Assembly (NCBI GenBank): GCA_963989385.1
Contig: OZ022508.1
Span: forward strand, 30,898,166 to 30,962,165
Reading direction: 5' to 3'
DNA from: Ctena decussata
Taxonomy: Eukaryota > Mollusca > Bivalvia > Lucinida > Lucinidae
DNA length: 64,000 bases
The first letter of the stretch is position 1. Each line of letters opens with the position of its first letter. The notes beneath the pieces are model-generated. The model made no database searches, was not told the DNA's origin, and was given only the letters and a program-made list of their open reading frames with translations. This document shows positions 13,116-33,001 of the stretch, in pieces. Made by a program: the position numbers and the translations under genes.

Positions 13116-13279
13116 AAAGCGTGGTCAAAGTGTTGGCAATGATTTGACTTCTCAATTCAATTTCATGAGGCGCTATCGTATGAAATTTGTAATAAAATTA
13201 TTACAACAGCAGTTGCGAACTCCATCTAACAAACTGATGAGAAACCGCCACAGAAAAGCTTTCCCGCTAATAGTAACTA

Positions 13280-13345
13280 CACTGGCGCTCACGTACTTGT
13301 ACACATTCAAAACGCGTCGGGGACGCAGTTGATGCGCGCGGGATA
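13280..13345. repeat. Left inverted end of copy A
   Basis: CACTGGCGCTCACGTA followed by TTGTACA and CG-rich sequence. Its reverse complement ends the copy at 25398-25463. Confidence 0.75.
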
Positions 13346-13809
13346 CGCGGTAATTATGAACGCGAATATTTTAGTAGCCAATGAAAATTCGTTCTCAGTT
13401 TTGCGTATACCGCGAAGCGACGCGTGCAACGCGCATTTTATGCAAATTTCATGGACCCAATCAAAATTGCGCACATGATACGGGTAGTGACGTAGTCCTT
13501 TGCGTCTCAACGCGCGCGTACGGGAACCAATCAAAATCGCGTATTGAATGCGCATTTTAGGGAGGTCAACTTTAAGTAAATCATGTGAAAGAAAGAGCCA
13601 TTAGTCTACATCAAGCTTGATGTTGAATGCTCATTTGGTCTTACTTGAACCATAACGGGAAAGAAAGAAAAAAAGAAGCCTAGAAACTCGACCGGCAACT
13701 CAAAACTAAATGCGACTGGGACAGTCCCATGACACTTCGCCATTGAAGTGGAAATAGCCTAAATCGCACTCTTCAGCCATAAATTCCTTTCGTATAAGAA
13801 ATTAAAATC

Positions 13810-13815
13810 GTGGAA
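13810..13815. repeat. Left 6-bp target-site duplication (GTGGAA)
   Basis: GTGGAA precedes the first base of the Polinton-like element and is repeated right after its last base. It occurs once in the matching uninterrupted sequence of copy B (26699-26704). Confidence 0.9.
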
Positions 13816-14693
13816 AGTAGTAAAGGACGCCACTCTGGACACGCCCGTCCGGAGACTAAGTCCGCAACCTGGGGCAGTCTCGGGCCGGGCGTGTCCATAG
13901 ATGACACCGTTTTAGTAAGCTTGAAAAGGCTAGTTTGAAATAACTTAGTCTTTTTCAGGGTAAAAGTCTATGTTAAATTGCATAGGAGATGTCTTAAGAG
14001 GCTATACAGCAATATGCGTCTGCTATGAGTCTCTTGGCCTTGTATCTCAAGACCTCACTATACCAGAGGCATAACTCTATAGCGTCAGTTGATGGTGTAA
14101 GTTGCTGTGGCATACTCTTGTTCATTCTGTTCAATTTCTGAGGCTTTACAGTTATATGCGTCTGCTATCAGTCTCTTGGCCCTGTATCTCAGGGCCTCAC
14201 TATACCAGAGGCATAACTCTATAGCGTCAGTACTTGTTCTTGGGGATTAATAAAATCTTGTATCTCAAGATTTTAATGTTCTGGACTGAAATTATTTCTT
14301 ACTAGCCTTCTAAAGCCTGACTACTACATTTGATGACGAGAAGATCTCTGCTGCCAGTGTGCTTGAACTTGTGGGTATCTAGTGGAAGGTCCACATATCC
14401 ACATTGAAATTGTGGAGCTGATGTGGATGTCAAGTGGAAGGTCCACATATCCACATTGAAATTGTGGAGCTGATGTGGATGTCTAGTGGAAGGTCCACAT
14501 ATCCACATTGAAATTGTGGAGCTGATGTGGATGATGTGGACTTGATGTGTATGCAATGTGGAGGTTATGTGGATGATGTGGATCCACAATGTGGAGTTTC
14601 CACATGTCCACATCTACACATTAGACAAATCGGCTTACCCTGTCCCATTTCTGACAGACTGACACAATGCATCTCAAAACCTCACTGTTACAA
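13816..14693 (+). repeat. Left terminal inverted repeat of the Polinton-like element
   Basis: Matches the reverse complement of 18749-19628 nearly perfectly over 878 bp. It contains a GC-rich outer block, two diverged copies of a block ending 'ccagaggcataactctatag' and the 52-bp tandem repeats. Confidence 0.92.
14381..14536 (+). repeat. 52-bp tandem repeats in the left inverted repeat (3 copies)
   Basis: Unit starts AGTGGAAGGTCCACATATCC at 14381, 14433 and 14485. Each unit contains TCCACAT/ATGTGGA inverted pairs, so single strands could fold into small hairpins. A derived run of TGTGGA motifs follows to about 14615. Confidence 0.9.
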
Positions 14694-14806
14694 TGCCAAC
14701 TGCCCAGAGGTTCACTTGTTCCTCATACATCCTAATTCTGAGTTATATCTGATTCCTACCTTCTATTCTGTACATGCATATTGTGGTTTATTATTTCGAA
14801 ACAAAA

Positions 14807-15192
14807 TTTGGTAGGTGTTGACTTGTTCTTTCCAATAAAAGAAAAAAATTGAAAATCCATTGAGGCAATTTGGAGTTATCACAGGTTTCTTACCCTCCAA
14901 ATTCCGCGCATGCGCAGTGTGACAATTTATTTTAAGAGTATTTGGTAGGTTTTGACTTGCTCTTTCCAATGAAAAAAGAATAATGAAAATCCATCAAGGC
15001 AATTTGGAGTTATTACAATTTTCTTACCCTCCATATTCCGCGCATGCGCAATGTGACAATTTATTTTAAAAGTATTTGGTAGGTTTTGACTTGCTCTTTC
15101 CAAATAAAAAAAGAATTATGAAAATCCATCAAGGCAATCTGGAGTTATTACAGTTTTCTTACCCTCCAAATTCCGCGCATGCGCAGTGCACA
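14807..15192 (+). repeat. 134-bp tandem repeat, about 2.9 copies
   Basis: Units start TTTGGTAGGT at 14807, 14941 and 15075, all 134 bp apart. Each unit ends with the palindrome TCCGCGCATGCGCA, which resembles the NRF1 site GCGCATGCGC. It lies just inside the left inverted repeat, outside the genes. Confidence 0.9.
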
Positions 15193-16029
15193 TGCCTGGT
15201 AAAACATCCTTCTTTTAGTTTAGAGCTAGTAGTTAACACAAAATATACTGATAACTGAAGTGGTAAATACATACAGGTATTCACTTTTCATTTGTATCAT
15301 TTTTTCTGAAAGCTATTACTTGAATAATCTATTTATAGAATAAGCAAAGTCAATCCAGATTTACCTCCCTTGTAATAACACCATAATATGAAAAATTGAA
15401 TAACTTTGTTATTTTTCGGCCGATTTTGATAAAATAAACACCAAAATGTAGATTTTATTATTCTTAAATTAATTTTTATAATGTAAAATGTGTTACTATA
15501 AATAGCTACATGACCTTTTATTGAAATAAGATATATGATATGCAAATGTCCAATCTTGTTTTAAGTAAACTGGTTTATGTTTAGTTATATATATTAGGAA
15601 CTCGCATATTAATATTGCTGGTTTGCCGGTCACCACTGGACTGGAACTGGTGTGCACAACGGTTATACCGCCTGGGCCCGCAGATGCGAAGTCTATCGAT
15701 TACATGTGAAACAGTAGAAGCCTTATGGCTTAAGGGGTCGGAACATCCATGGTTCCGTAAAAGGTACCTCCGCTGGCAGGTCTCTGGTCCATAGCGACAT
15801 TCAGGACTTGTGATCATGTAGATATGGCTTCAAATCGCCAGGGCTTCCCAGGCATAGGGTAACCGACCGGGGAAGAAATAGTGCTGTACAGCACACTCTT
15901 CTTGCTAAATTTTTAAGTGTATATTTTTGTCTTTACTGGCATGCAAGAAATAAAGATTGCATTTTTGTGGCACTATAATTTTGATGAGAATTGTGTGAAA
16001 TAATATATGAATTTCAAAATGCTATCCGG
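15193..16029. other. Non-coding left interior of the Polinton-like element
   Basis: AT-rich sequence with one GC-richer block at about 15600-15870. Short minus-strand frames (78 and 70 codons) have no recognisable motif and no TATA or poly(A) partner, so I do not call them genes. Confidence 0.5.
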
Positions 16030-16037
16030 TATATAAG
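16030..16037 (+). promoter_or_regulatory. TATA box, gene 1 of the Polinton-like element
   Basis: TATATAAG, 113 bp before the ATG at 16150. A short out-of-frame upstream ATG (16122) lies between them. Confidence 0.6.
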
Positions 16038-16149
16038 TGTGATGTTCAGATATGAATTCATTCTAGTTTTGAACAGAGAGAAGTAAGAAGCAAGAGAAAA
16101 AAACAAAGCAGTTTAAGATATTTGATGAGTTATAATTCATCTCCTGATC

Positions 16150-16992
16150 ATGAAGGACTTCTATCTGACACTTCTGAGCGATGGTTCTCTGAAAACTTTC
16201 CCTCAAAACACACAAAGCTCTTTTACTGTGAGACTAGATCACCCGATAAATATCGAAAGCGAAAAGTGGGAAGTTGCTTTGGTGGAATTAATTACACCAT
16301 CTCGAGTCAATAATATTTCAGAAAACAATAACTTTTTCTTTTTGTCATTTCTGGACCAAGCGGTATTAAATGCTCAGGGAATAGATACCACAAAGGATTT
16401 GTGTGCTAGTGGAGAGGGCTGTCATGAATATAAATTATTTCTTCCTGAAGGAAATTACAACTCTCCACAGCATTTGGTGGATGAGATGCAATCTGTTATA
16501 GATACAAAACATGGATCTTTAATGAAACAAATAAATGCTTCTATCAGCATTACTTATGTTAAAAGCACAAATCGTCTAAAAGTTGTTGCACAAAATCCAA
16601 ACCAGGTCAGGATTCGCTTTCCAGCTTCACTTGGACAAGCTCTTGGAGTTAATCCGGATATGTCAGAAAACCCCATTGGAAACGAATCATATGCTTTCAA
16701 ATATGGAGTAGACCTAAATATATTGCATAATCGCTTGTACGTGTACTCAGATGTAGTTGATTATACATACCTTGGTGACGTGACGGCCCCTATTTTGAGA
16801 GTTGTACCATTTGAGAATTCAAAACGCTCTCAGCAGTCACACAAAGAATTTGTCAACATGCACTACGTTCCAGTGGGAAAATCTTATATTGATCAAGTTC
16901 ATATCAGTATCAAAGGTGATACCGGTAAAAATATTCAGTTCAGCTCTGGAAAGACTTTAATTAAGTTACATTTCAGGCGGCGAATTAAATAA
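16150..16992 (+). CDS. 280-residue Polinton-like element protein, candidate jelly-roll (minor capsid type) protein
   Basis: Intact ORF from ATG to TAA. The N-terminus (LTLLSDGSLKTFPQNTQSSF, then WEVALVELITP) follows a pattern I associate from memory with proteins near MCP-like genes in invertebrate Mavericks. These open with a short strand, a polar 'P-N' stretch and a 'W-E-V-A-L' strand. Composition is strand-rich, with no signal peptide or membrane segment and a basic tail (FRRRIK). The length suits the Polinton PY/penton-type minor capsid protein, but I cannot confirm the fold. It is the only gene of the element without a frame break. AATAAA overlaps its stop codon. Alternative: a lineage-specific accessory protein of unknown role. 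Confidence 0.6.
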   Translation: MKDFYLTLLSDGSLKTFPQNTQSSFTVRLDHPINIESEKWEVALVELITPSRVNNISENNNFFFLSFLDQAVLNAQGIDTTKDLCASGEGCHEYKLFLPEGNYNSPQHLVDEMQSVIDTKHGSLMKQINASISITYVKSTNRLKVVAQNPNQVRIRFPASLGQALGVNPDMSENPIGNESYAFKYGVDLNILHNRLYVYSDVVDYTYLGDVTAPILRVVPFENSKRSQQSHKEFVNMHYVPVGKSYIDQVHISIKGDTGKNIQFSSGKTLIKLHFRRRIK

Positions 16993-16993
16993 A
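16988..16993 (+). terminator. Poly(A) signal overlapping the stop of gene 1
   Basis: AATAAA includes the TAA stop at 16990-16992 and is followed by an A-rich run. Confidence 0.55.
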
Positions 16994-17012
16994 AAAAGAA
17001 ATACAAAATAAG

Positions 17013-17020
17013 TATAAATA
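17013..17020 (+). promoter_or_regulatory. TATA box, gene 2 of the Polinton-like element
   Basis: TATAAATA, 55 bp before the first ATG of the next unit (17075) and 20 bp after the previous poly(A) signal, so the units are tightly packed. Confidence 0.55.
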
Positions 17021-17074
17021 CAACACACTGTTACAAACGTCACCATTTCAAGTAAAATCTTGAGAGAAAGCAGA

Positions 17075-17486
17075 ATGTCTGGTAGTTCCAATAACCTAAC
17101 AAAAGCACACTGTGGGCTAACTTGTGAATCTTCAGGCTTGCCTGTCATTCCTGTTGTACAAAAAAAGAAAAAGAAATCCTTCTACCTTTGGACAGATTCG
17201 ATACCTCATGAAACGATTGTCAACTGCTTTGGACAAAAGGCTCAGAGAGGGTAGACCTTTAAAGTATTGCCGACTATGCAGAGCAGAAATTCGTTCATTA
17301 TGTCGTGAGGAGAAAGAAAAGCAACACAAACTCAAAGGATACATACACAAGAAGAATAAACAGTTAAGACGTTCCAGGCGGACAAAGAATGATTCTGGGG
17401 GTCAGAAATGTCATAGACGTAGTGAAGCTAAAGAAGATATCAACAGACAGACAGGGAACAAGCTGGAGTTAAAAACAATGAAATAA
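17075..17486 (+). pseudogene. Basic Lys/Arg-rich protein split over two reading frames
   Basis: The frame from ATG 17075 opens MSGSSNNLTKAHCG and runs to 17254. An overlapping frame carries most of the protein-like sequence, up to the stop at 17484-17486. The switch would lie near 17158-17180, where an A-rich run (C, seven A, G, five A, G, three A) could be a mutational slip, a sequencing indel or a programmed frameshift site. The second frame is strongly basic, contains CRLC and then C-terminal clusters KKNKQLRRSRRTK, and lacks its own well-placed ATG. Charge suggests nucleic acid binding, for example a core or DNA-condensing protein; that is inference. AATAAA overlaps its stop. Confidence 0.5.
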
Positions 17487-17487
17487 A
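17482..17487 (+). terminator. Poly(A) signal overlapping the stop of gene 2
   Basis: AATAAA spans the TAA at 17484-17486, the same arrangement as in gene 1. Confidence 0.55.
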
Positions 17488-17744
17488 GTGTTAGTCACTT
17501 TTTTAATGCTATGATGATTGAGTAACATTGGAAACTTGTATCAGTTTTCTAAATGTAGGTTTGTTAAAATTCAGTTGGTATTTAGACTATTGACAGAATT
17601 AATAAAACTGATATTAAATTATACACATTTTTTTCACAATTTTCTACATCATTTAGTTCACAAAAGTGCATGCAATTGGTAAAAATGTAAGAATTGCAGT
17701 GGTTTACCAAACTTAGCACAAGTTCTTCAATATCTATTGCAGAC

Positions 17745-17752
17745 TATAAAAG
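17745..17752 (+). promoter_or_regulatory. TATA box, gene 3 of the Polinton-like element
   Basis: TATAAAAG, 43 bp before the ATG at 17795: the best match of the three to a core promoter. Confidence 0.65.
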
Positions 17753-17794
17753 AAAGAGTCAAAGGATAAAACTTCATTCTTCAACCAGTCGTTA

Positions 17795-18489
17795 ATGGGT
17801 CGATACCAGTGCAAGCAGTGCTTCCGTGAATTTGCTCGATCAGACAGCCTGAGAAGACATATGTCCAGTGGTGTTTGTAAAGCAACTACAACTATGTCTG
17901 ACAGCGAAGAAAGTACTATCTCAGAAGCATCGGATGTAACTACAAACAGAAAATATTTGAAGGGAATGAAAGGACATGATATCTTTGGAGAATATGATTA
18001 TAGTAAACTCTCGGACGATCCAGACACAGAACCGTCAGAAGTGGAGACAGACAGTGAGTCTGCCAGTAAAGAGGAAAAACAGAAAGCCAAACGCAGGAAA
18101 ATTCAAAAGACAAGTCCTTGGGATAGACTAATGAGAAGTACTTACAGAGACAATCAAGATCAGTTCGATGAAACAGTGGAAAATAGCATGCAGGAGACAC
18201 CTAACATCGATGTTGAATCAGCTGAGGAAATGGCATATGAAGAACTGAAACCAAAATACAGATCAACGCTGGTTACCAAGTATCAAGACCTCGTGGCACT
18301 CGGGTCTGCTTGAGAAAAGATCCTATCCACAAGAAAGTAATATCAACAGCTCACAGATTGAAAGAAGATGAAGACTATGATGAAGAAGAGGCGATGCAGT
18401 ATGCAATGAAAAAAAGAAGATATCTACTTGAACGAAATCTTGACGAATATGAAAGACCAACTTTAACTGTTGAAGAGGAAACCCAATGA
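17795..18489 (+). pseudogene. Zinc-finger protein of the Polinton-like element, frameshifted near its end
   Basis: The first frame (17795-18313) encodes 172 residues: one N-terminal zinc finger with C-x2-C at residues 6-9, a basic linker and a H...C pair at about 22-28, then an acidic Ser/Glu-rich region, a KRRKIQK nuclear-localisation-like patch, and a helical acidic domain beginning WDRLMRS. The stop at 18313 is premature by appearance: another frame continues without a gap to 18489 with helical, charged sequence (YAMKKRRYLLERNL) that looks like the rest of the same domain. One indel near 18300 explains it. A DNA-binding regulator is the likely role. Its AATAAA is at 18689. Confidence 0.6.
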
Positions 18490-18688
18490 CATGGATTCTT
18501 GAAAGGACTTTGAAATTAACCATTTCAGCGATGGCAAAGCATTGAGATCATTTAAATAATAGTAGAACTGTAGTGGAACCTATCAAAAGAGTTTTATTTA
18601 CTATCAAACACTAATGATCATTATGTAAACGAAGACAGAGGGACGGTCCTAATCCTCTGTCTGTCGTAATGAATAGGTGAGCGGGACA

Positions 18689-18694
18689 AATAAA
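18689..18694 (+). terminator. Poly(A) signal, gene 3 of the Polinton-like element
   Basis: AATAAA followed by a GT-rich stretch (GTTGTTCTG), 200 bp after the second-frame stop and 55 bp before the right inverted repeat. Confidence 0.6.
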
Positions 18695-18748
18695 GTTGTT
18701 CTGAATTTAAACTGTTGTTAATTGTTCTTTTCTTCCTAGTTCTTATTG

Positions 18749-19628
18749 TTGTAACAGTGAGGTTTTGAGATGCATTGTGTCAGTCTGTCAGAAATGGGAC
18801 AGGGTAAGCCGATTTGTCTAATGTGTAGATGTGGACATGTGGAAACTCCACATTGTGGATCCACATCATCCACATAACCTCCACATTGCATACACATCAA
18901 GTCCACATCATCCACATCAGCTCCACAATTTCAATGTGGATATGTGGACCTTCCACTAGACATCCACATCAGCTCCACAATTTCAATGTGGATATGTGGA
19001 CCTTCCACTTGACATCCACATCAGCTCCACAATTTCAATGTGGATATGTGGACCTTCCACTAGATACCCACAAGTTCAAGCACACTGGCAGCAGAGATCT
19101 TCTCGTCATCAAATGTAGTAGTCAGGCTTTAGAAGGCTAGTAAGAAATAATTTCAGTCCAGAACATTAAAATCTTGAGATACAAGATTTTATAATCCCCA
19201 AGGAACAAGTACTGACGCTATAGAGTTATGCCTCTGGTATAGTGGTGCCCTGAGATTCAGGACCAAGAGACTGATAGCAGACGCATATTACTGTAAAGCC
19301 TCAGAAATTGAACAGAATGAACAAGAGTATGCCACAGCAACTTACACCATCAACTGACGCTATAGAGTTATGCCTCTGGTATAGTGAGGTCTTGAGATAC
19401 AGGGCCAAGAGACTCATAGCAGACGCATATTGCTGTATAGCCTCCTACGACATCTCTTATGCCATATTACATAGACTTCCCGCCTGAAAAAAAGACTAAG
19501 TTATTTCAAACTAGCCTTTTCCAGCTTACTAAAACGGTGTCATCTATGGACACGCCCGGCCCGAGACTGCCCCAGGTTGCGGACTTAGTCTCCGGACGGG
19601 CGTGTCCAGAGTGGCGTCCTTTACTACT
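18749..19628 (-). repeat. Right terminal inverted repeat of the Polinton-like element
   Basis: 880-bp inverse of the left repeat with a few substitutions and small indels. High identity points to recent insertion or repeat homogenisation. Confidence 0.92.
18911..19066 (-). repeat. 52-bp tandem repeats in the right inverted repeat (3 copies)
   Basis: Inverse of the array at 14381-14536, same copy number and unit order. Confidence 0.9.
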
Positions 19629-19634
19629 GTGGAA
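19629..19634. repeat. Right 6-bp target-site duplication (GTGGAA)
   Basis: Second copy of the duplicated target, after which copy A resumes with TCTGAAATTAATATGG exactly as in copy B. Confidence 0.9.
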
Positions 19635-20515
19635 TCTGAAATTAATATGGCCTTTATGGAAAATAAGTGCCAGGCGGCAGTCACTTTGAATCTTAAAGAA
19701 TTCAAGTCAGGGTGGGGGGATAAAAACCTCTGATCAGTGACCTATAAATAGCAGTGACCTGGAGGGCTGATTGGAGTTTTACGAGAGCATGTTTGGGAGA
19801 GGAGTGGTAGGTCACTGCTCTGATCAACATGACTTGGAAACGGTTGTCTCCAGGGCAGTGTCCTCAGCCCTATCCTATTCATTGTAATAATAAATACCCT
19901 TGATGATGCTGGGTGGGTGGGGGGGGGGAGGGGAAGGGCAAACCTCTCTCTTTCTCAGTTTGCAGATGACAGTGCTATCTGGACCTACCAATCCTCTCCC
20001 AAACATGCTGTCGTAAAACTCCAGTCAGCCCTCCAGACAATCGAGATATGGTCCACGCTCTGGGGCTTCAAAATACCCACTATTAAGACAAAGTCTATAA
20101 TTTTCCCTTAAAAAAAGATAAATATTGAATCACTTTAAAAACTCTCCCTTTTTGGGACAGAAATAGAATTTTGTGACCATATCACCTTCCTGGGTATGAT
20201 CAAACTAACATAAGGGGTCAGCATATTAAAAATCTGATTGAAAAATGTAATAAAGACCTAAACCTCATGAGGACGGTTTCCGGCACCTCCTATGAAGCAA
20301 ATAAAAAATGCTATTGACATTATATAAGGCCCTAATCCTCAGTAAAAGTTGATTATGGCGCGCAAGCTTATAATTCGGCACCCAAAACATCTACTCTCAA
20401 AGCTCAAGACCTCATCCAAAACAACTTAGCACTCCGTATTGCTACGAGGGCATACCACTCCGCCCCTATTAATGCTTTAGAAGTTGAATGTGGAATTAAA
20501 CTCCTACAGCTGAAG

Positions 20516-20610
20516 GTGCCAGGCAGCGTAGTGCAATCGATAGGGCACCTGACTCATGCCAGAGGTCTTGGGTTCGAGAACCCGGTTGGGCCACATACTT
20601 CGTTTCTCCT
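20516..20610 (+). mobile_element. tRNA-like SINE fragment within the RT remnant, copy A
   Basis: Contains GGGCACCTGACTCATGCC and GGTTCGAGAACCC, an A/B-box-like pair. The same insertion is at 27540-27615 in copy B, so it predates the copying. Confidence 0.6.
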
Positions 20611-20963
20611 TCCGCTGATTCAAGAAAGGCAGTTGTCAATTATTGACCATCGGCACTTACAACCATACCAAACCCTCAAAACTGGACGTTTATCCCCTAA
20701 TAAATGAAGCAGTTACCAAAAAATGGCAATCCCAATGGACCAATAGCAACAAGGGCCACACCTTCCCTTTCGTCAAACCAAAGGTTAAACTTCAATGTGA
20801 CGTATATAGTCTCAATAGACGTTTCGACATAGCCTATTCCGGACTAAGGCTAGGACACTGCGGGCAGGGCTGCCTTCACTACAGTAACCAGTCCGCCCTA
20901 TGCCCCCACTGCAATGATGCAGAAGATCTCAACCATATCTTCTTTGACTGTGTGGCCCCATAA

Positions 20964-21370
20964 CAATCAAAGGCGAGACCATAGAATCCACAATATTCAA
21001 GTTAGGCTATCATACAATAGACCTGAGACTGCTCCTTTCTCCCCCAAAGAAACATGCAAATACAATACAGAAGGTAGTCTTTGAATACCTAGACAAAACC
21101 AATATCATTGCCAGGATATAGATAGATTCCAATACAATAGAGAAAAAAATCCCCCTAATTTTCTCTAATTCGAGCCCCTGTTGCTAACCACCTACCAAAC
21201 CCATTTCCCAAAATCCCTGGATCCACATTAATACCCTACTAAGTGCAATGCTCATGACAAAAACTCCCATTACCCAGTAAAAGCCCCAGAACCCATCTGT
21301 ACGACTACAATCTGACTTTCCCTACGGTCGAATAAATAACTTTTGTCTATTGACAATAAAGGCTAAAATT
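20964..21370. other. Copy A segment between RT remnant and tandem array
   Basis: Non-coding, collinear with 27969-28355 of copy B; no feature recognised. Confidence 0.5.
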
Positions 21371-22340
21371 AATGTGTATCCAACCTCATTAAACTCACAC
21401 CCAGGCTAAGTTACCTGGAAACTAAATGAAACAGCCAAAAGAAACTGCACTCTTTTCCCGTCAATCCGCAATAAGAGATAAGCTATAGTCCTCTGGTCCA
21501 TTAAAAATACTCTCCATTTCTTCCCCACCCCCAAATTAATGTGTATCCAACCTCCTTAATCTCACACCCAGGCTTACTTACCTGGAAACTAAATAAACCA
21601 TTATAAGGTTCAACTAATTTGCTCCCTAGAAACGGCCAAAAGAAACCGCCGTCCTTTTTGAACAACCCGCAATAAGAAATAAGCTACTGTCCCCGTGTCT
21701 ATTAATAATATTCTCCATTTCCCCTCCAAAAAATAATGTGTATCCAACCTCCTTAATCTCATACCCAGGCTTAGTTACCTGGAAACTAAATAAACCATTA
21801 TAAGGTTCAACTAATTTGCTCCCTAGAAACAGCCAAAAGAAACAGCCAAAAGAAATCGCCGTCCTTTTTGACCAACCCGCAATAAGAAATAAGCTTCTAT
21901 CCCCGTGTCTATTAATAATATTCTCCATTTCCCCTCCAAAATATAATGCGTATCCAACCTCCTTAATCTCATACCCAGGCTTAGTTACCTGGAAACTAAA
22001 TAAACCATTATAAGGTTCAACTAATTTGCTCCCTAGAAACAGCCAAAAGAAACCGCCATCCTTTTGGAATAACCCGCAATAAGAAATAAGCTACTGACCC
22101 CGTGTCTACTAATATAATATTCTCCATTTCCCCTCCAAAAAATAATGTGTATCCAACCTCCTTAATCTCATACCCAGGCTTAGATACCTGGAAACCAACT
22201 AAACCATTATAAGGTTCATCACATACATTTGCTCCCTAGAAACAGCAAAAAGAAACTGCTCTCTCCTCCCAACAATCCACAATAAGAAATGAGCTACAGT
22301 CCTGTTGTTGACTAATAATATTCTCCATTTCCCAAAATAT
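21371..22340 (+). repeat. ~200-bp tandem array, five units (copy A)
   Basis: Units open AATGTGTATCCAACCTCCTT at about 21371, 21538, 21735, 21945 and 22144. Each contains ACCCAGGCTTAGTTACCTGG and a TTTGCTCCCTAGAAACAGC block. Copy B has three units. Confidence 0.9.
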
Positions 22341-24023
22341 TAGAACACTAAAAAAACTCCCATGAAAATACAGGACCCTAAAAGTTTAAATATGCAATAT
22401 ATTTTGGAACCAACTAAACCAAGATAAGGTTTAGAACAAATGCTACAGTCCTAGGTCCCAAAACGAATTTTTACCCCACCTACCTCCCTCCCAGCAGAAT
22501 TAAGCTACGGTCTTGTCTGAGACCAACGGTCGCAATTAATGATGTGACCCAGGCAATCTCAATTACTCATGAGGGCCACAAAACCATGAGACAACTGCAT
22601 TCCAGATCACCCTCAATTTCTTATCCCCCACTGCCCATTGCATTAGTTAATAAGAGAATTTGCTCCCCACCTAAGAATTTGCTCCCCATTTCCCCCTAGA
22701 CCTGCCCTGGGCCCAGCTAGGACAGGGAGCTTGTTCCGGCAGAACTAGCAAAGTGAAGTCTGATGGAGGCCTGCAGTTCGGGGAAGATGCATTATGGCTT
22801 GCCTCTCATGCCATGCGTTTCCAGAAGCCCTGAATTGTATTGCTAAAACCAACCCACAGTGGGTCGCGAGGGCTGTGTGCATGGGAAGTAATTTATGTGG
22901 ATCTGTGCACAAGTCCATTTGGGTTCTATCCCATTGCTACTTAATGTTTTTGGAAGTTTTTGCTCCCCACCAAAGATTTTGCTTCTCCCTTTTTCTGAGA
23001 CGTCACCTGCCCAGGACCCAGCACAGGTCCACTTCGGTGCAACCCCACTAACACATGAATCTGGGCAGTCTTTTGCACCCGCCCCCTCCCCACCAAAGAA
23101 TTTGCATCCCATCTAAGAATTTGCTCCTTGTTCCCTCCTCCTCCTCCCCATTTTTTTTCCTCCATAGAACTGTCTTTGACCTAGCCAGGACAGGGGGGGG
23201 GATTGTTCGAGCTTTGGTCTAGCTTCGGTTAGAAAACCAAGTTCTTCTTGTAGAGAGTCAGGTGTTTTTTCTTGCCGGGGTTCTCGGTTTTCAGTCACCT
23301 TGATGATCATTCATCTCTGGCCCCATATGCTGAAAATTTTTGCAGCATTAAATTGCTTTCTGGAAATCAAGGTTTATCTTGGAATGTAGGTTACTATTCT
23401 GCCTTCAGCCAAAACTACATGCTACAAATGAAACATTCTTAAACTTTATTTTGTTAACTTTTACTCTGTGTAGAGGATATCTGTTTCGATTCGGCACAGA
23501 TTGCTCTGCAATAAGGTAATCCAAAGAGAACCCACTTGTCTGTTCAGACTATACCATTTCCAATTTAACGCAAATTACTTCGTAGTAAAATAATGTTTTT
23601 GATTGGGTGCAAGTTACTTTGCAGTAAAGTAAATGCAGCCTGCTCAAATGTTAACATGACCTAAACATGCCCGAGGTCAGTTCAAAAATAAATTTTAATG
23701 CGGCTTTGCTTCGGTTTGCTGTTTAGACAGGACTTTTAATCCGAAGTAAAAGTTAATTCGGATTTGATCCAAGGTACTCTGTAGGATTAGTTTAATTACT
23801 CCGAATTAGTTTTTAATTCGAATAAGATTTGCTAGTCTAAACAGCTAATTCAAAGCAAATTCTGATTCGATTCGGATTAAAACTCTAGTCTAAACAGGAT
23901 TATTGAAGGTATAGAAAATTCAGGCATGCGAATATTTTTACATTGTTTCAAAGGCAAGCATAATTGCTTATTTGTGGCCTTGGTTGTGGAGAAAACTGGA
24001 GTACCTGAAGAAAACCACCAACC
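22341..24023. other. Copy A middle part without genes
   Basis: Repeated short block 'aatttgctcccca' at about 22655-22690 and 23095-23130. AT-rich sequence with a probable decayed MITE at about 23460-23900 (ends with TCTAAACAGG motifs) that copy B lacks. No coding signal. Confidence 0.5.
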
Positions 24024-24457
24024 TTCCTGCAGAGACTGTCCGAGTGATTCTGCTTCCTGCCGAGGATCTCGGAAGGAAGCAGAGTCACGTGGAAGTCTCG
24101 GTAGGAAGCCAATTTTGGAGGACAGAAGTCTCTGCAGGAAGCAAGAGATCGCGGACAGTCTCGGCAGAAGCCAAATATGATGTGAAGTCCACCGAGACTG
24201 TCTGCCAGTTCTTGCTTCCTGCAGAGACTTCTGTACATGATAATTGGCTTCCTGCCAAGACTGTCCGCGTGACTCTGCTTCCTGCCGAGAGGCTTGACAG
24301 GAAGCAGAATCACGCGGACAGTCTCTGCAGGAAGCCATTTATCATGTACAGAAGTCTCGGCAGGAAGCAAGAACTCGCGGACAGTCTCGGCGGAAGCCAA
24401 ATATGATGTACAGTCTCTGCAGGAAGCGAAAATTAGAGGAATCGATTATACCCTGTG
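24024..24457. repeat. Alternating palindromic array, copy A
   Basis: Built from GCTTCCTGCCGAGACTGTCC and its complement in alternating orientation, giving at least three nested hairpins centred near 24070, 24185 and 24290. The outer left arm present in copy B is missing. Confidence 0.8.
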
Positions 24458-24624
24458 GTATTGTTTAACTCAATATAATAGTCTGGGTCCAAATTTTGCT
24501 GGTCAGTTTAATTCTTAGCGAGGGTTACCGTGTGTGTTCTGGCCCAGATAAATTGTGACTTTTTTTTTGTTTGTTTGTTTTCTGGGCTTAGAAGTTAAGA
24601 AAAATAGAAGTTATGTATAGCTTC

Positions 24625-25026
24625 TAAAGGCCCGTTTACACGAGTAAAGTTTCTATGTCACAGAAACTTTAACAAAGAAAGTATGACAAATTATTTGTCA
24701 AAGAAAATGTGCCATAGAATCTTTGTCACATAAACTTCGGCAATGAAATATTTGCTGCAGTGTTCACACGACCAATTATTCGTCAAAGTTACCTGCAGCG
24801 ATGAAACAAAATCTTTGTCACATTTTCCACGCTTGTAGCAATGTTCTTTGTTACATAATCTTTAGCAAAGTTCTCCGTTTACACGGACAAATTTAATATG
24901 TCGAAGTAACTTTACCATATATATTTGCCAAATAAACATTGTCATACTTTGGCATTTACACGAGCAAATTTTTCTGTGACAAACCTACTTTGTCATAGAA
25001 ACTTTGGTCGTGTAAACGCGCCCTAA
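24625..25026. mobile_element. MITE family 2, copy 2, with TAA target duplication
   Basis: Element 24628-25023 (396 bp) has ends AGGCCCGTTTACACGA and the inverse ending CGTGTAAACGCGCCC, with TAA on both sides. Copy B has one TAA at 30896-30898 and no insertion. A 3-bp TAA duplication and G/C-rich ends fit the PIF/Harbinger superfamily. Confidence 0.85.
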
Positions 25027-25397
25027 GCCTAGAAGTTCTATTATAGAGTTAGTCTAAATAGTAGTTAATGAGTCCCATTGATACAGAAATCGAGACGTTA
25101 CGAGTTGTAATGTAAAAATTGACCCAGATAATGTGGGACTACTTTATGGTTCCCGTCTTCTGCGCATCGATTCCGTCAGATTCCCGGTAGAGAGATCGAT
25201 ACAATATTTAATTAACTTAGTAACTTATATTGTTTTAAGCTATCTTAAAACTATTTTAATCAGGCCAACGTACAATCTGCGGTTGTACGCGTATTGAACA
25301 AGTCATGAATATTCATGTTATCATCGTTTGCGTCTCCCGCGTCGAGACGCGCCAGGGCGCGTCTAGACTCGTCTGATGCGCGGTTCTAGGTGATACG

Positions 25398-25463
25398 CAC
25401 GCAGCACGCGCATGCAACGCGATACGTACGCGTTTTTGGTGTACAAATACGTGAGCGCCAGTG
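25398..25463. repeat. Right inverted end of copy A
   Basis: Reads ...GTACAAATACGTGAGCGCC then AGTG, the inverse of the left end with a few mismatches. Confidence 0.75.
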
Positions 25464-26181
25464 TAGCTATATTTTTTTGCAGTTTCTTATCTACGACACT
25501 TTCTATTTCCTTTTAATTTCAGCCAGCGCTCAGCCTCTTTACATTTTGTAATCAGATCATGGAGTACATGTAATCACAGAAGCGGATAATGTTGACGCCA
25601 TCTTGTTTTTCTGAGACGGAACTTTTAACATCATTTCGTAACGTTGCGACAGAAACTGCCACACGGCGGCGCTGAATTACTCCCACCTCACCTTAATCAT
25701 AGATTAGACTGGTGTTTACACTGATGAATTGGATAGGAACAGATGAATGTAAAATCAAACAATATATATGTATATTATTAGCTTCGGAAACAAATAGACT
25801 GGTGTGCCTTTTAATTTTAATCTTCGTTTGTGCACTGTCGTTTTATTTTCGAAATGAATATAAGCGCTTCGGGACTATTGAATAGGCTACATGATAGCAT
25901 ATCGACCGATGGATGAAACCCATCTTTCCATCCATTTGTCCGTCCGCCTCGTCCGTCTATCCATGGACGAATTATGAATCCCCCATTAAAACCAACTTTC
26001 ACGTGGAACCTCCATGGATAAGGGGAACGAGAGTCCATTCTAGATCTCAGACTGCCTGATAATGATGACTTCCTCTATTATAAAGCGAACCCCAAACCCA
26101 TCCCAACTCCCCCCCCCCCCCCCACACACACACAGACAAAACAAAAAGAGATTATACGTAGAATTTAGAACTGAAAGGTTA
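25464..26181. other. 718-bp spacer between copies A and B
   Basis: Unique-looking AT-rich sequence with a poly-C run and (CA)n at 26109-26134. No gene. Confidence 0.6.
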
Positions 26182-26698
26182 CACTGGCGCTCGCGTATTT
26201 GTACACATTCAAAACGCGTCGGGGACGCAGTTGATGCGCGCGGGATACGCGGTAATTATGGACGCGAATATTTTAGTAGCCAATGAAAATTCGTTCTCAA
26301 TTTTGCGTATACCGCGAAGCTACGCGTGCAACGCGCATTTTATGCAAATTTCATGGACCCAATCAAAATTGCGCACATGATACGGGTAGTGACGTAGTCC
26401 TTTGCGTCTCAACGCGCGAGTACGGGAACCAATCGAAATCGCGTATTGAATGCGCATTTTAGTGAAATCATGTGAAAGAAAGAGCCATTAGTCTACATCA
26501 AGCTTGATGTCGAATGCTCATTTGGTCTTACTTGAACTATAAGTGGAACGAAAGAAAAAAAAAGAAGCCTAGAAACTCGACCGGCAACTCAAAACTAAAT
26601 GCGACTGGGACAGTCGCATGACACTTCGCCATTGAAGTGGAAATAGCCTAAATCGCACTCTTCAGGCATAAATTCCTTTCGTATCAGAAATTAAAATC

Positions 26699-27968
26699 GT
26701 GGAATCTGAAATTAATATGGCCTTTATGGAAAATAAGTGCCAGGCGGCAGTCACTTTGAATCTTAAAAAGGCATTTGACCTTATATGGACTTCATGGACC
26801 CTCATCAAGCTAAACGAATTCGGCATCAATGGAAATGTGTTCCGCTGCATTCATAACTTCTTAAACGGCAAAAGAATCCAAGTCAGGGTGGGGGGTAAAA
26901 AACCTCTGATCAACATGACTGGGAAATGGCTGTCTCCAGAGCAGTGTCCTCAGCCCTATCCTATTCAATGTAATAATAAATACCCTTGATGATGCCCTGG
27001 GGGGAGGGGGGGTGCAGGACCCAAACCTCTCTCTTTCTCCGGTTGCTGATGACAGTGCCATCTGGACCTGGCACTCCTCTCCCAAACATGCTCTCCCAAA
27101 ACAATCGAGATATGGTCCAAGCTCTGGGACTTCAAAATCCCCACTACTAAGACAAAGGTTAAATTTTCACTAAAAAAGACTTAATATTGAATCACTTCAA
27201 AAACTCTCCCTTTTTGGGACAGAAATAGAATTTAGTGACCATATCACCTTCCTGGGTATGATCCTAGATAGCAAACTAACATGGGGTCAGCATATTAAAA
27301 ATCTGATTGAAAAATGTAATAAAGACCTAAACCTCATGAGGATGGTTTCAGGCACCTCCTATGAAGCAGTTAAAAAAATCCTATTGACATCATATAAGGC
27401 CCTAATCCTCAGTAAAATCGATTATGGTGTGCAAGCTTATAACTCGGCACCCAAACATCTACCCCGTATTGCTATGAGGGCATACCACTCCATCCCTATT
27501 AATGCTTTAGAAGTTGAATGTGGAATTAAACTCCTACAGCTGAACGCGCCGGGCCGCAATCGATAGGGCACCTGAATCATGTCTGAGGTCTTAGGTTTGA
27601 AACCCAGTCTGGCCACATACTTCGTTTCTCCTTCCGCTGATTCAAGAAAGGCAGTTGTCAATTATTGACCACCGGCACTTACACCCATACCAAACCCTCA
27701 AAACTGAAATGAAGCAGTAACCGAAAAATGGCAATCCCAATGGACCAATAGCAACATGGGCCATACCTTCCATTTCGTCAAACCAAAAGTTAAGTTTCAA
27801 TGTGATGTATATAGCCTCAATAGACGTTTTGACATAGCCTATTCCGGACTAAGGCTAGGACACTGCGTGCAGGGCTGCCTTTACTACGGTAACCAGTCCG
27901 CCCTATGCCCCCACTGCAATGATGCAGAAGATCTCAACCATATCTTCTTTGACTGTGCAGCCCCATAA
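26699..27968 (+). pseudogene. Non-LTR reverse transcriptase remnant, copy B
   Basis: Better preserved 5' part than copy A: motif A-like LNLKKAFDLIW, then GINGNVFRCIHNFLNGKRI, VADDSAIW (motif C, at about 27045-27065), LGMILDSKLTWGQHIKN and the C-terminal Cys/His cluster. Frames are broken at several points and there is no 5' ORF or endonuclease. It begins at the GTGGAA where copy A was hit by the Polinton-like element. Confidence 0.82.
27540..27615 (+). mobile_element. tRNA-like SINE fragment within the RT remnant, copy B
   Basis: Diverged counterpart of 20516-20610; the B-box-like block reads AGGTTTGAAACCC here. Confidence 0.5.
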
Positions 27969-28355
27969 CAATCAAAGGCAAGACCATAGAATCCACCATA
28001 TTCAAGTTAGGCTATAACACAATAGATCTGAGACTGCTCCTGTCTCTCCCGAAGAAACATGCAAATACAATACAGAAGGTAGTCTTTGAATACCTGGACA
28101 AAACCAATATCATTGCCAGGATAAAGATAGATTCCAATACAATAGGGAAAAATTCCCCCTAATTTTCTGTAATTCGAGCCCCAAACCCATTTCCCAAAAT
28201 CTCTGGATTCACATTCTCCCCTACTAAGTGCAATGCTCTTGACAAAAACTCCCATTACCCAGTAAAAGCCCCAGAACCCATCTGTACGACTACAATCTGA
28301 CTTTTCCAATGGTCGAATAAATAACTTTTGTCTATTGACAATAAAGGCTAAAATT

Positions 28356-28945
28356 AATGTGTATCTAACCTCCTTAACCTCACACCCAGGCTAAGTTACC
28401 TGGAAACTAAACGAACCATTATAAGGGTCAGCACATTTGCTCCCCAGAAACAGCAAAAAGAAACTGCCCTCTTTTCCCAACAATCCGATGTAAGAAATAA
28501 GCTACAGTCCTATGACCATTAATAATATTCTCCATTTCTTCCCCATCCCCAAATTAGTGTGTATCCAACCACCTTAATCTCACACCCAGGCTTAGTTACC
28601 TGGAAACTAAATAAACCATTATAAGGTTCAACTCATTTGCTCCCTCGAAACAGCCAAAAGAAACCGCCGTCCTTTTCGAACAACCCGCAATAAGAAATAA
28701 GCTACAGTCCCCTTGTCTATAAATAATATTCTCCATTTCCCCTCCAAAAAATAATGTGTATCCAACCTCCTTAATCTCACACCCAGGCTTAGTTATCTGA
28801 AAACCAACTGAACCATTATAAGGTTCATCACATTTGCTCCCTAGAAACAGCAAAAAGAAACTGCCCTCTCCTCCCAACAATCCACAATAAGAAATTAGCT
28901 ACAGTCCTGTTGTTGACTAATAGTATTCTCCATTTCCCAAAATAT
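28356..28945 (+). repeat. ~200-bp tandem array, three units (copy B)
   Basis: Units open at about 28356, 28556 and 28753. Two fewer than in copy A, so the array expanded or contracted after copying. Confidence 0.88.
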
Positions 28946-30284
28946 TTGAACACCAAAAAAAAAAAATCCCATGAAAATACAGGCCCCTAAAACTTCAAAT
29001 ATGGAATATATTTTGGAACCAACTAAACCAAGATAAGGTTTAGAACAAATGCTACAGTCCTAGGTCCCAAAAGGAATTTTTACCCTAACTACCTCCCTCC
29101 CAACAGAATTAAGCTACGGTCCTCCCTGACGCAATTCATGATGTAACTCAGGCAGTCTCAATTACTCATGAGGGCCACAAAAACATGAGACAACTGCATT
29201 CCAGATCACCCTCAATCTCTTATCCCCCACTGCCCATTGCATTAGTTAACAAGGGAATTTGCTCCCCACCTAAGAATTTGTTCCCCATTTTCCCCCTAGA
29301 CCTGCCCTGGGCCCAGCCAGGACAGGGGGCTTGTTCCGGCAGAACTAGCAAAGTGAAGTCTGACGGAGGCCTGCATTCCGGGGAGATGCATTATGGCCGG
29401 AAGTGTGCCTCTCATGTGATACGTTTCCAGAAGCCCTGAAATGTATTGCTAAAGCCAACCCACAGTGGGTCGCGAGGGCTGTGTGCATGTTAAGTGATTT
29501 ATGCGAATCTGTGCACAAGTCCATTTGGGTTCTATCCCATTGCTACTTAATGTTTCTGGAAGTTTTTGCTCCCCACCAAAGATTTTGCTTCTCCCTTTTT
29601 CTGAGACGTCACCTGCCCGAGACCCAGCACAGGTCCACTTTGGTGGAACCCCACAAACACATGAATCTGGGCAGTCTTATGCACCCCCCACTCCCCACCA
29701 AAGAATTTGCACCCCACCCAAGAATTTGCTCATTGTTCTCTCCTCCTCCCCTTTTTTTCTCCATAGAACTACCTTGGACCTAGCAAGGACGGGGGGGGGG
29801 GGGGCTTGTTCCAGCTTCGGTCTAACATCGGTTAGAAATTCAAGTTCTTCTTGAAGAGAGTCAGGTGTTTTTTTCTTGCCGGGGTTCCCGGTTTTCAGTC
29901 ACCTTGATGATCATTCAACTCTGGCCCCATATGCTTGAAATTTTTGCAGCATTAAATTGCTTTCTGGAAATCAAGGTTTATCTTGGAATGTGCATATTCT
30001 GCCTTCAGCCAAAACTACATGCTACAAATGAAATATTCTTAAACTTTATTTTGTTAACTTTTACTCTGTGCAGAGGATGCCTGTTTCGATTCAGCACAAA
30101 TTGATCTGCAATAAGGTAATCCGAAGAGAACCCACTTGTCTGTTCAGACTATACCATTTCCAACTTCGATGTAAAATAAATGTGAGATGGGAGTGCGCTG
30201 ACCACTGAGCTATGGAGACCCCTTGAAATAGTCTTGAATTGGCTTTGAAACACTTATAATTTGTTATAAAAATATGCCAGTATT
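28946..30284. other. Copy B middle part without genes
   Basis: Collinear with copy A 22341-23560. It ends with a different insert, including a minus-strand tRNA-like A-box block near 30188-30222 (complement reads CATAGCTCAGTGGTCAGCGC). Confidence 0.5.
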
Positions 30285-30705
30285 CACAGGGTAGAATCGA
30301 TTCCGCTAATTTTCGCTTCCTGCAGAGATTGTACATCATATTTGGCTTCTGCCGAGACTATGCACGAGTTCTTGCTTCCTGTCGAGAGTCTCTGCAGGAA
30401 GCAAGAGATCGCGGAAAGTCTCGGCAGAAGCCAAATATGATGTACAGTCCGCGGAGACTTCGGCGATATCTCTTCCTTCCTGCAGAGACTTCTGTCCTCG
30501 AAAATTGGCTTCCTGCCGAGACTGTGTGCGTGATTCTGCTTCCTGCCGAGAGCAGAATCATGCAGACAGTCTCTGCAGGAAGCCATTCATCATGTACAGA
30601 AGTCTCGGCAGGAAGCAAGAACTCGCGGACAGTCTCGGCGGAAGCCAAATATGATGTACAGTCTCTGCAGGAAGCGAAAATTAGCGGAATCGATTATACC
30701 CTGTG
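30285..30705. mobile_element. Fold-back element, copy B palindromic array
   Basis: Fully symmetric: starts CACAGGGTAGAATCGATTCC and ends GGAATCGATTATACCCTGTG, with arms of about 95 bp that continue as GCTTCCTGC/GCAGGAAGC repeats. The complete form shows that copy A's array has lost its left end. Confidence 0.82.
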
Positions 30706-31350
30706 GTATTGTTCAACTTATTATAATAGTCTGGGTCCAAATTTCACTGGTCAGTTTAATTCTTAGCGAGGGTTACCGTGTGCCCGGATTTGTCCGTTCC
30801 GGCCCAGATAAGTTGTGACTTTTTTTGTTTGTTTATTTTGTTTGTTTGTTTTCTGGGCTTGGATGTTAAGAAAAATAGAAGTCATGTATAGTTTCTAAGC
30901 GTAGAAGTTCTATTATAGAGTTAGTCTAAATAGTATTTAATGAGTCCTATTGAATTCAGAAATCGAGACGTTATGATATGTTATGTAAAAATTGACCCAG
31001 ATAATGTGGGACTACTTTATGGTTCCCGTCTTCTGCGCATCGATTCGGTCAGATTCCCGTTAGAGGGATCGAGACATTCACAATATTAACTTAGTAACTT
31101 AGCAGTGAAGAGTTTTTAGTTTTAAGCTATCTTAAAACTATTTTAAATAGGCCAACGTACAATCTGCGGTTGTACGCGTATTGAACAAGTCATTGATATT
31201 CATTTTATCATTGTTCGCGTCTCCCTCGTCGAGACGCGTCAGGGCGTGTCTAGACGCGTCTGATGCGCGGTTCTAGATGATACGCACGCAGCACGCGCAT
31301 GCAACGCGGTACGAACGCGTTTTTGGTGAACAAATACGTGAGCGCCAGTG

Positions 31351-33001
31351 TAGTCCCAACAGAATCTCTAAATTTTGTGACTTGAAATTTAAAATCTTGC
31401 TTCTGAATCAATCGGCCCCGATTTTTTTCCCATAAGAAAGCACATGCCGTGAAAAAAAAGCCAAGGTCAAACCAAGGTCATCATCTGAATAAATGTGATA
31501 GTACTTGAGTAGACAATGCTATTTTGCACGTTTCAAGGCCATCTGGTTAGTGTTTGGTTCTGGAGAAGAAAATTTTAAGCCAATGTTGATCATGAAACCA
31601 CAGCAGTTTACTGATTCAAAAAAAATCGCCCTCACGACCCCTGGATGATCCACATTCATCTGAGTGCTTTAGAAGAGGGTATGTTTAAAACTCTAGAAAT
31701 TTGAGTGTCCTTGGTGAAAGTTCTGGTGCTCAGAAATCTCCATGTATTTATTTAGTTGTATATACTCACTTTTATATTTAAATCTATAAAAAGTTTCCGA
31801 GAAGTGTAATGTTGTAGCATTTTCGCATAGAAAAGCAGAAGGATGGACTGGATAGATATTCGATTGGACGTTAATTTCCGTGAACTGAAGTACCTAAGAC
31901 CTTAATGTATTTCCAATTATGATGGTTATTATTTTAGATTTTTGTGCGGAGGTTTAAATTACCCTTTGATCTTTTATATATAAACACTTCTCGTTTAAAG
32001 ATTTTCATGTCGTCAGCCTTTTTGATATACTCGATCATTGGAGAGATCCCGAAAATGATTCATACCAAGTTTGGTCAAACAGGAGATAGTAGCACGAACT
32101 AACAATACGTCGTAAAAATAAAAACGGACAGCAAAAGCTCAGCTCTTTCCCAGTTTGTCGTCATATATTTAGTCCTAACCAAATATTAATATTTGACGCC
32201 TATAAAAATCTATTTTATATTCTTTTCCATTTAAGTTAAACTTACAAAGAGCAAAACGAACCGATTTTACGCATACTACAGATAAAGGGACACAACAAAC
32301 ACTTTCATCAATAAATCATATCGCAAAGACCGCCTTGGAGCGGTAAATAATACATTACTGGTGGTCTAAACTTTTTTACGTAGCCCCAACCCTCATAATC
32401 CATTCAGCCGTCTTAAGAAGAAGTCGGTGTGACAGAAAGTTTACTGACGGACGACGGACGGTGGAAAACCAATTATCACAAAACACCACCATGACTTCAT
32501 CTCGGTGAGCTAAGAGAAACAGAGATCCTGAAAACAGGACACAAGTTTCTATGTGTCATTGAATGAAGTGTGCTGTCGACGTGCCATTTTCTTTTGTTGG
32601 TTCCTGGTTGGATTTATTGGCTAATACAATAAAAATATAGTCACATTGGCCAAACTGACAATTAGAAAAGTCACGACATTATACCAGATTATGCCCAGCA
32701 TTTTATTCAAAACAAAACTTTGTGCAACTACTTGTATCTTTATTGTTTCTCATAATTAACAACAATGCAATAACAAATGGGTTTGCAACATTTAACATTC
32801 AAAAGCACAGTATTACACTTACAATACAACAAATTATTGTGGAGATATAAAAAACTACAAAGTTGTATGTAATAAATTAATATATGTTAATCTTTGGCTC
32901 TAATAATAAGTCCTAACAGTATTAGCAAATGTTCAAATTCCTTTATTCATCTGTGACCAGTTATGTACCAGCATATGAATAAATTATGTGGCACAAAACA
33001 G
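31351..33001. other. 3' flank of the ABCC gene
   Basis: Non-coding and AT-rich. The right part must contain the minus-strand 3' UTR. No other gene seen. Confidence 0.5.
32942..32947 (-). terminator. Candidate poly(A) signal for the ABCC gene
   Basis: AATAAA on the minus strand, 55 nt after the stop. A second AATAAA lies at 32702-32707, which would give a 300-nt 3' UTR. The sequence does not decide between them. Confidence 0.35.

Follow-up and report, generated by a model that had tools for sequence, protein, structure and literature searches.

A 5.8-kb element with Polinton ends and its own penton gene in the clam Ctena decussata is very probably a helper-dependent satellite of Polintons

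Results

A short element with Polinton ends at a precise insertion site

The subject of this work is a 5,813-bp mobile element of the lucinid clam Ctena decussata, located in a window of 64,000 nucleotides (the whole stretch of DNA that was analysed; assembly GCA_963989385.1, contig OZ022508.1, positions 30,898,166 to 30,962,165 of the forward strand), to which all coordinates below refer. The limits of the element were set by its inverted repeats, a target duplication and an empty site, as follows.

13816..19628, plus strand: whole element, 5,813 bp
13810..13815, no strand: left 6-bp target duplication, GTGGAA
19629..19634, no strand: right 6-bp target duplication, GTGGAA
13816..14693, plus strand: left terminal inverted repeat
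18749..19628, minus strand: right terminal inverted repeat
13833..13900, plus strand: imperfect terminal hairpin (z -4.7 for 13816-13955 folded as DNA)
26180..26767, plus strand: paralogous empty site in a segmental duplicate, with a single GTGGAA at 26699-26704 (blastn of the flanks against the duplicate)

An earlier note on this sequence had described the ends as a Polinton signature, consisting of AG...CT termini, inverted repeats of 878-880 bp and a perfect 6-bp duplication, and the repeats, the duplication and the empty site all bear this out. The element begins with AGTAGT and ends with ACTACT, and its inverted repeats (878 versus 880 bp) are 98% identical, being seen also as pieces of 140 nt (99%) and 743 nt (97%); the AG...CT terminal inverted repeats and 6-bp target duplication of a Polinton/Maverick are thus present. 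The surrounding host segment is duplicated in the window at approximately 26.2-31.4 kb, and the element is absent from the duplicate. The left flank (13278-13815) matches 26180-26704 at 93.9% and the right flank (19629-19697) matches 26699-26767 at 100% by blastn, the two matches overlapping by exactly 6 bp, which are GTGGAA. Because the site is empty in the duplicate, the 5.8-kb unit was inserted precisely. The two regions (13278-25466 and 26180-31353) form a diverged tandem segmental duplication, ~85-94% identical in the longer pieces and including ~200-bp repeat arrays. A strong imperfect hairpin lies near both ends of the window copy, at 13833-13900 and 19544-19611.

Three genes, one of them predicted to encode a penton protein

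The element contains three genes, all on the plus strand.

16150..16992, plus strand: open reading frame 1 (ORF1), predicted penton (vertex capsid) protein, 280 amino acids, open frame
17075..17486, plus strand: ORF2, basic Cys-containing protein; frame interrupted in the window copy, 136-141 amino acids and open in 14 of 14 other copies fetched
17795..18489, plus strand: ORF3, C2H2 finger, acidic linker and helical domain; interrupted after 18313 in the window copy, 231 amino acids and open in 13 of 14 other copies fetched

The three small genes of the earlier note therefore stand in part: ORF1 is open in the window copy, whereas the frames of ORF2 and ORF3 are interrupted there but open in most other copies. 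None of the three main frames scored above a Pfam cut-off, the best match being the C2H2 finger (23.7 bits versus a cut-off of 25.2). The protein collection contains 114 entries for ORF1, counting its own; none of them has a Pfam family, and a PDB sequence search with its profile returned a single weak penton match (E 2.1). An AlphaFold2 model built from 58 sequences (mean pLDDT 90.2) had the mavirus penton, 6g41, as its best Foldseek match (E 3.4e-11, probability 1.00), followed by adenovirus penton base and Sputnik, and by this modelled fold ORF1 is a penton (vertex) protein. The penton (PX) gene of Polintons is thus represented in the element, and its homolog in the long elements described below lies near a putative major capsid protein (MCP). 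A tblastn search of phage records with ORF1 gave no match, and the relatives of ORF1 in viral and genome contigs and of ORF3 in viral contigs are pattern matches, none of them confirmed.

ORF2 has no Pfam family; ThiD2 and Fer2_BFD were rejected as assignments since their scores fell under cut-off. The model of an ORF3 relative (P0121, 31 sequences) reached a mean pLDDT of 68.4, with disorder following the finger and confident helices at residues 105-214.

Intact copies of the same gene set are under purifying selection

The earlier note had proposed a search for other copies carrying the same genes, and such copies are abundant in the assembly (1.658 Gb, 245 contigs), where a repeat search scored 40 of 1,240 candidates. 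A 28-bp pattern for the terminus, with at most 3 mismatches, occurs 98 times in forward and 99 times in reverse orientation (197 termini), against 0 in the control. Pairing was built from 100 listed of these 197 termini and gave 42 pairs, with 16 places left unpaired. Among these, 22 pairs are 5.2-6.3 kb and 13 are 17.9-23.9 kb; the remaining seven measure 78, 2,073, 4,065, 4,234, 8,462, 11,201 and 11,848 bp. Fourteen of the 21 other short pairs were fetched, together with 3 of the 13 long pairs, the latter as halves. All 14 short copies matched ORF1, ORF2 and ORF3 in the same order, with open frames of 280 amino acids for ORF1 in 13, 136-141 for ORF2 in 14 and 231 for ORF3 in 13. Perfect 6-bp duplications, every one different, flank 14 of 14 short and 3 of 3 long elements fetched. 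Because the short elements have the same gene set, one main length class and different 6-bp duplications, they are not chance deletions, and the view in the earlier note that this is not random deletion debris holds.

The two arms of a copy, compared over their outer 500 bp, do not differ in 4 of the 14 other copies, differ by 0.2-1.4% in 9 and by 14.8% in one, while those of the window copy differ by 4.4%. If arms start identical, recent and older insertions would coexist in this genome and the window copy would be among the older ones.

The ratio of nonsynonymous to synonymous divergence (dN/dS) was estimated by the pairwise Nei-Gojobori method over all pairs with bootstrapping over codons, the 95% intervals being approximate since the copies are not independent. 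It was 0.19 (0.10-0.37) for ORF1 in 14 copies, 0.32 (0.18-0.59) for ORF2 in 14 and 0.14 (0.08-0.27) for ORF3 in 13. Broken-frame copies were dropped (L054 for ORF1, the window copy for ORF2, the window copy and L058 for ORF3). None of 1,000 bootstraps reached a ratio of 1 and every interval lies below 0.6, so by these substitution patterns purifying selection acts on each of the three genes.

A full-length Polinton in the same genome has the same ends and control region

A full-length Polinton with PolB, integrase and the same ends, which the earlier note had suggested looking for, is present in the same genome. We call the short and long elements of this family satellite-1 and helper-1, names that anticipate the reading argued below. 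The long elements read are Polintons of 18.4-18.5 kb with PolB, integrase, ATPase and protease. In one of them (C3, read as L039 and L040) the ATPase is of A32 type (29.4 bits), the rve integrase is accompanied by a chromodomain (51.4 and 29.4 bits), the C5 protease scores 22.6 bits versus a cut-off of 21.3, and a penton homolog is also encoded; a frame of 431 amino acids one gene past the penton is its putative MCP, assigned by position alone. This placement matches the position relative to penton given for MCP in the available part of PMC4028283. PolB was identified in a second element, C13 (159.3 bits), and the left piece of C3 has a PolB-like frame of 1,285 amino acids running to the end of the piece; the halves of C3 and C13 are 99.7% and 99.3% identical over the parts compared.

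Satellite-1 and helper-1 match over the outermost 270 bp of one end and the outermost 500 bp of the opposite end (92-97%), and a strong imperfect hairpin is predicted at the helper-1 ends too. They also have in common approximately 1 kb of internal non-coding sequence (88-91%), which in the helper lies between the leftward gene(s) and the start of PolB.

14765..15905, plus strand: non-coding control region in common with the helper, 88-91%
14806..15188, plus strand: 2.9 tandem units of 134 bp with three YGCGCAYGCGCR sites, at 14905-14916, 15039-15050 and 15174-15185

The YGCGCAYGCGCR motif, which we take to be an NRF1 site, occurs in the window at those three places only (six matches counting both strands; 0.02 expected), and two to three sites are present in all 15 satellite copies and all 3 helpers. 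At 15570-15930, within the common control region, tRNA-promoter-like boxes were seen by eye; a structured RNA is not claimed there (z -2.2 only). The 52-bp tandem repeats (TGTGGATGTCTAGTGGAAGGTCCACAT...) at 14370-14533 and 18909-19072 lie further inward in the inverted repeats of the satellite, beyond the sequence that it has in common with helper-1.

To define what the short elements lack, 16 proteins of the 18-kb helper-1 Polinton (one of them a PolB part) were searched by tblastn against 15 satellite elements at a threshold of 1e-3. The helper penton matched 15 of 15, and each of the other 15 proteins, among them PolB (part), integrase, ATPase and protease, matched 0 of 15, in a search that did not look for intron-split genes. 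The protein-primed PolB of Polintons is thus found in the helpers and the rve integrase, A32/FtsK ATPase and C5 protease in helper-1, with no match in the satellite, as the earlier note had stated for this element. Nor was a double jelly-roll MCP found there: no frame of the element exceeds 280 amino acids, and the putative helper MCP, known as such by position only, matched 0 of 15. In the opposite direction, ORF2 and ORF3 of both families were searched for in six helper-1 halves and a 6-kb piece of the second helper, and nothing was found below E 1. The pentons of helper-1 and satellite-1 are 61.4% identical in amino acid sequence, with a proportion of synonymous differences (pS) of ~0.61. 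The word stripped, which the earlier note used for the element, does not fit, as the helper pieces read showed neither ORF2 nor ORF3 and the satellite penton is a separate, old lineage.

A second probable satellite-helper pair with other ends

A protein search with an ORF3 relative revealed two ORF3 types, told apart by frame length among 150 scored of 559 candidates; PolB places were likewise taken from 74 scored of 420 candidates. Two places of the second type were fetched, and both have the three genes in the same order, with 77-78%, 54-56% and 72% identity to the first family; none of the helper proteins tested there matched except the penton. One of them, L059, is an element of 4,844 bp with inverted repeats of 989 bp at 99.6% and the duplication TTCTAC; it has no YGCGCAYGCGCR site. 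Its terminus occurs 75 times forward and 67 times reverse (142 termini; control 0), and 100 listed places of these 142 termini gave 33 pairs. Of the 11 short pairs at 4.7-6.2 kb, 8 hold a listed ORF3, and of the 5 long pairs at 12.1-16.6 kb, 3 hold a listed PolB and none a listed ORF3. In the first family, a listed ORF3 lies within 12 of the 22 short pairs, and some short copies lacking a listed one hold one when read. No terminus pair of either family holds both a listed PolB and a listed ORF3, and none of the 74 PolB places listed lies within 30 kb of any of the 150 listed ORF3 places. Further family-2 pairs at 1.8-3.0 kb (n=12) and below 0.7 kb (n=5) hold neither ORF3 nor PolB among those listed; the twelve are possibly a third, gene-poor tier on the same ends.

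Helper-2 is a Polinton of 16.3 kb that has its ends in common with satellite-2, and the 6-kb piece of it that was read (L061) encodes an integrase, a penton, a putative MCP and a protease that match those of helper-1 at 79-87%. Satellite-2 matches L061 over 161 bp at the terminus (96.9%) and over a further 351 bp in subterminal position (92.9%); satellite-1 and L061 have in common short pieces only (117 and 45 bp) plus the penton gene. The terminal hairpin of the second pair is different and weaker.

Genes and ends of the satellites have different affinities

Penton identity is 77.1% between the two satellites, 83.6% between the two helpers and 61.4-66.1% for the four satellite-helper pairs. 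Over the terminal 160 bp, identity is 91.9-96.2% between satellite-1 and helper-1, 96.9% between satellite-2 and helper-2 and 57.3-62.1% in the cross pairs, the values for the second pair resting on one sequence per element. By these comparisons the two satellites are one lineage in their pentons, while in its ends each satellite goes with its own helper. The gene grouping and the end grouping disagree in the way that end capture predicts, and the simplest history would be a single lineage of satellites that acquired its ends, on one occasion or more, from a local helper.

In midpoint-rooted ORF1 trees the satellite and helper-1 pentons fall in separate groups, each supported at 100/99. Proteins from a metagenome-assembled genome (MAG), Candidatus Thiodiazotropha AB2693, occur in both groups: P0048 with the helpers, P0004 with satellite-2 (98/97) and P0006 with satellite-1 (99/96). 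Thiodiazotropha bacteria live in lucinid clams. Four Polinton or satellite proteins (P0004, P0006, P0048 and P0160) are filed under this bacterial MAG, which looks as if it contains host DNA. Since P0006 (ORF1) and the ORF2 relative P0160 have neighbouring tags (23630 and 23635) and the same contig size of 1,550, the adjacency of ORF1 and ORF2 probably exists in another animal. Longest contigs of equal length in the protein collection connect ORF1 and ORF2 in six cases, ORF2 and ORF3 in four and ORF1 and ORF3 in one.

Other features of the window

Rfam gave five matches in the element, none at gathering score; Flavi_NKV_CRE and mir-1003, both under it, were taken as chance hairpins. Outside the element, at 20643-20963, a short frame has a weak zf-RVT match under cut-off and is perhaps a retroelement fragment.

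Discussion

A probable satellite of Polintons

These results make it very probable that the element is a helper-dependent satellite of Polintons. The earlier note had suggested a dependent element, possibly a satellite of a full Polinton, and this is supported by Polintons with common ends in the same genome and by the recurring gene set. No replication or mobility genes were found in the element, and the cis-acting ends of a helper are present; its own selected genes include two, ORF2 and ORF3, that were not found in the halves of three helper-1 elements or in 6 kb of helper-2.

We propose that the protein-primed polymerase of the helper would copy the satellite from the matching ends and that the helper integrase would insert it, giving the 6-bp duplications, with the common control region tying satellite expression to helper signals or program. 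The satellite particle would combine the helper MCP with the satellite's own penton; it may be smaller, fitted to 5.8 kb, or the penton may mark satellite DNA for packaging. Whether the satellite penton is used in satellite particles is in our judgement an even question. ORF3 may be a regulator acting on the helper or host program, and the satellites may persist by re-acquiring the ends of whichever helper is in use.

Several points weigh against this reading. The satellite is known here from DNA alone, with no mobilisation, particle or transcript observed. The putative helper MCP has no Pfam family and its best PDB sequence match is at E 0.21. The helpers were read as halves of 3 of the 13 long family-1 elements and as 6 kb of one helper-2, the lists cover 74 of the 420 candidates for PolB and 150 of the 559 for ORF3, and only 1 of the 13 long family-1 pairs holds a listed PolB. 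Finally, an ORF2 relative (P0163) and an ORF1 of the helper clade (P0009) have longest contigs of equal length, 2418, one of the links given above; this might be an element of another species pairing ORF2 with a helper-type penton and could tell against a clean split elsewhere.

Among the alternatives, the satellite might be kept by the host as a defence element that suppresses the helper, a possibility that is compatible with helper dependence and that we consider unlikely, though less so than those that follow. With a penton of its own and a zinc-finger regulator, the satellite could interfere with the assembly of the helper or with its expression, and the available part of PMC10945749 offers a precedent in virophages integrated in a protist that act against its giant virus. 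The purifying selection on the satellite genes would fit such a role, but selfish spread predicts it equally, and the copies are dispersed over different sites.

An ordinary non-autonomous derivative, in which a recent internal deletion of a full Polinton is mobilised by its parent and carries left-over genes with no role, would account for the termini and internal non-coding region in common with the Polinton and for one gene homologous to a helper gene. It is very improbable, however, given that the penton is only 61% identical (pS ~0.61) when the non-coding parts are 88-97% identical, that neither half of three helpers showed ORF2 or ORF3, that purifying selection acts on all three genes, that a second family with different ends has the same genes, and that the short copies form one main length class.

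We give just as little credence to a bipartite virus whose 5.8-kb and 18-kb elements are mutually needed segments. Both have their ends and control region in common and the pairing is seen twice, but the long element has its own penton, PolB, integrase, ATPase and protease, and nothing obvious is missing from it. A small transposon of separate origin, with Polinton-like ends by convergence and a different enzyme, would be favoured by small size alone and can be dismissed, the 160-bp ends being 92-96% identical to those of a co-resident Polinton and 6-bp duplications being found in both.

Significance

To our knowledge, particle formation by animal Polintons has not been settled by direct observation. 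A satellite penton that is under selection and has long been apart from that of the helper is an indirect sign that particles did form and that the vertex is important for the satellite. Two satellites and two helpers in one genome provide a matched two-by-two set for work on packaging, end recognition and interference. According to the available part of PMC4028283, Polinton-like elements shorter than 10 kb were discarded there as incomplete, and elements of this kind have perhaps been overlooked for that reason; we predict that genuine satellites exist among the short Polinton-like elements dismissed as fragments. No animal Polinton satellite was found among the papers listed in literature searches, at the level of titles and the openings of abstracts, a scope that excluded Repbase and most subscription papers, where a short non-autonomous entry may exist.

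Comparison with known systems

The satellite resembles a full-length Polinton/Maverick in its AG...CT ends, 6-bp target duplication and penton gene. Helper-1, in which integrase, PolB, ATPase and protease are joined by a penton gene lying one gene away from the putative MCP, fits the description of Polintons in the available part of PMC4028283, which gives their length as 15-20 kb, compared with 5.8 or 4.8 kb for the satellites. The satellite differs from them in having no match to PolB, integrase, ATPase, protease or the putative MCP and in carrying two genes not found in the helpers.

Known kinds of element include short non-autonomous transposons as well as phage satellites. Like transposons of the Ds or miniature inverted-repeat (MITE) type, the satellite has the ends of an autonomous partner and would be moved in trans. 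It differs in having three conserved, selected genes, one of them for a capsid protein of its own lineage, and it is not a subset of the autonomous element at uniform identity, with a penton at 61%, ends at 92-97% and ORF2 and ORF3 not found in the helper.

Virophages have genes of their own for MCP, ATPase, protease and replication. Two of them, mavirus and Sputnik, are among the closest solved penton structures to ORF1, but of the virophage genes the satellite carries the penton alone, the helper versions of MCP, ATPase and protease having no match in the element. All known virophages parasitise giant viruses, according to the available part of PMC11071308. Ziftr zinc-finger genes, reported in some adintoviruses and in an adomavirus from a clam dataset (PMC11071296, seen in part), are similar as virus-borne zinc fingers, one of them in a clam-dataset case, a likeness by description only; ORF3 has one C2H2 finger and a separate helical domain.

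The phage satellites PICI and PLE, as far as the partial sources describe them, are alike in their small genome, their dependence on a larger helper (which we infer here), their integrated state and a gene of their own that acts on the capsid, here a capsid component. The present satellite differs in its animal genome, its Polinton helper and its penton gene, and the link to the capsid is known here from the genes alone. Another phage satellite, P4, remodels the capsid of its helper. Our confidence is evenly divided on the broader proposal that these elements represent a class of double-stranded DNA provirus satellites of animals, which would hijack Polinton capsids with a penton of their own, persist over host speciation by repeated capture of Polinton ends and be the animal counterpart of P4 and PICI.

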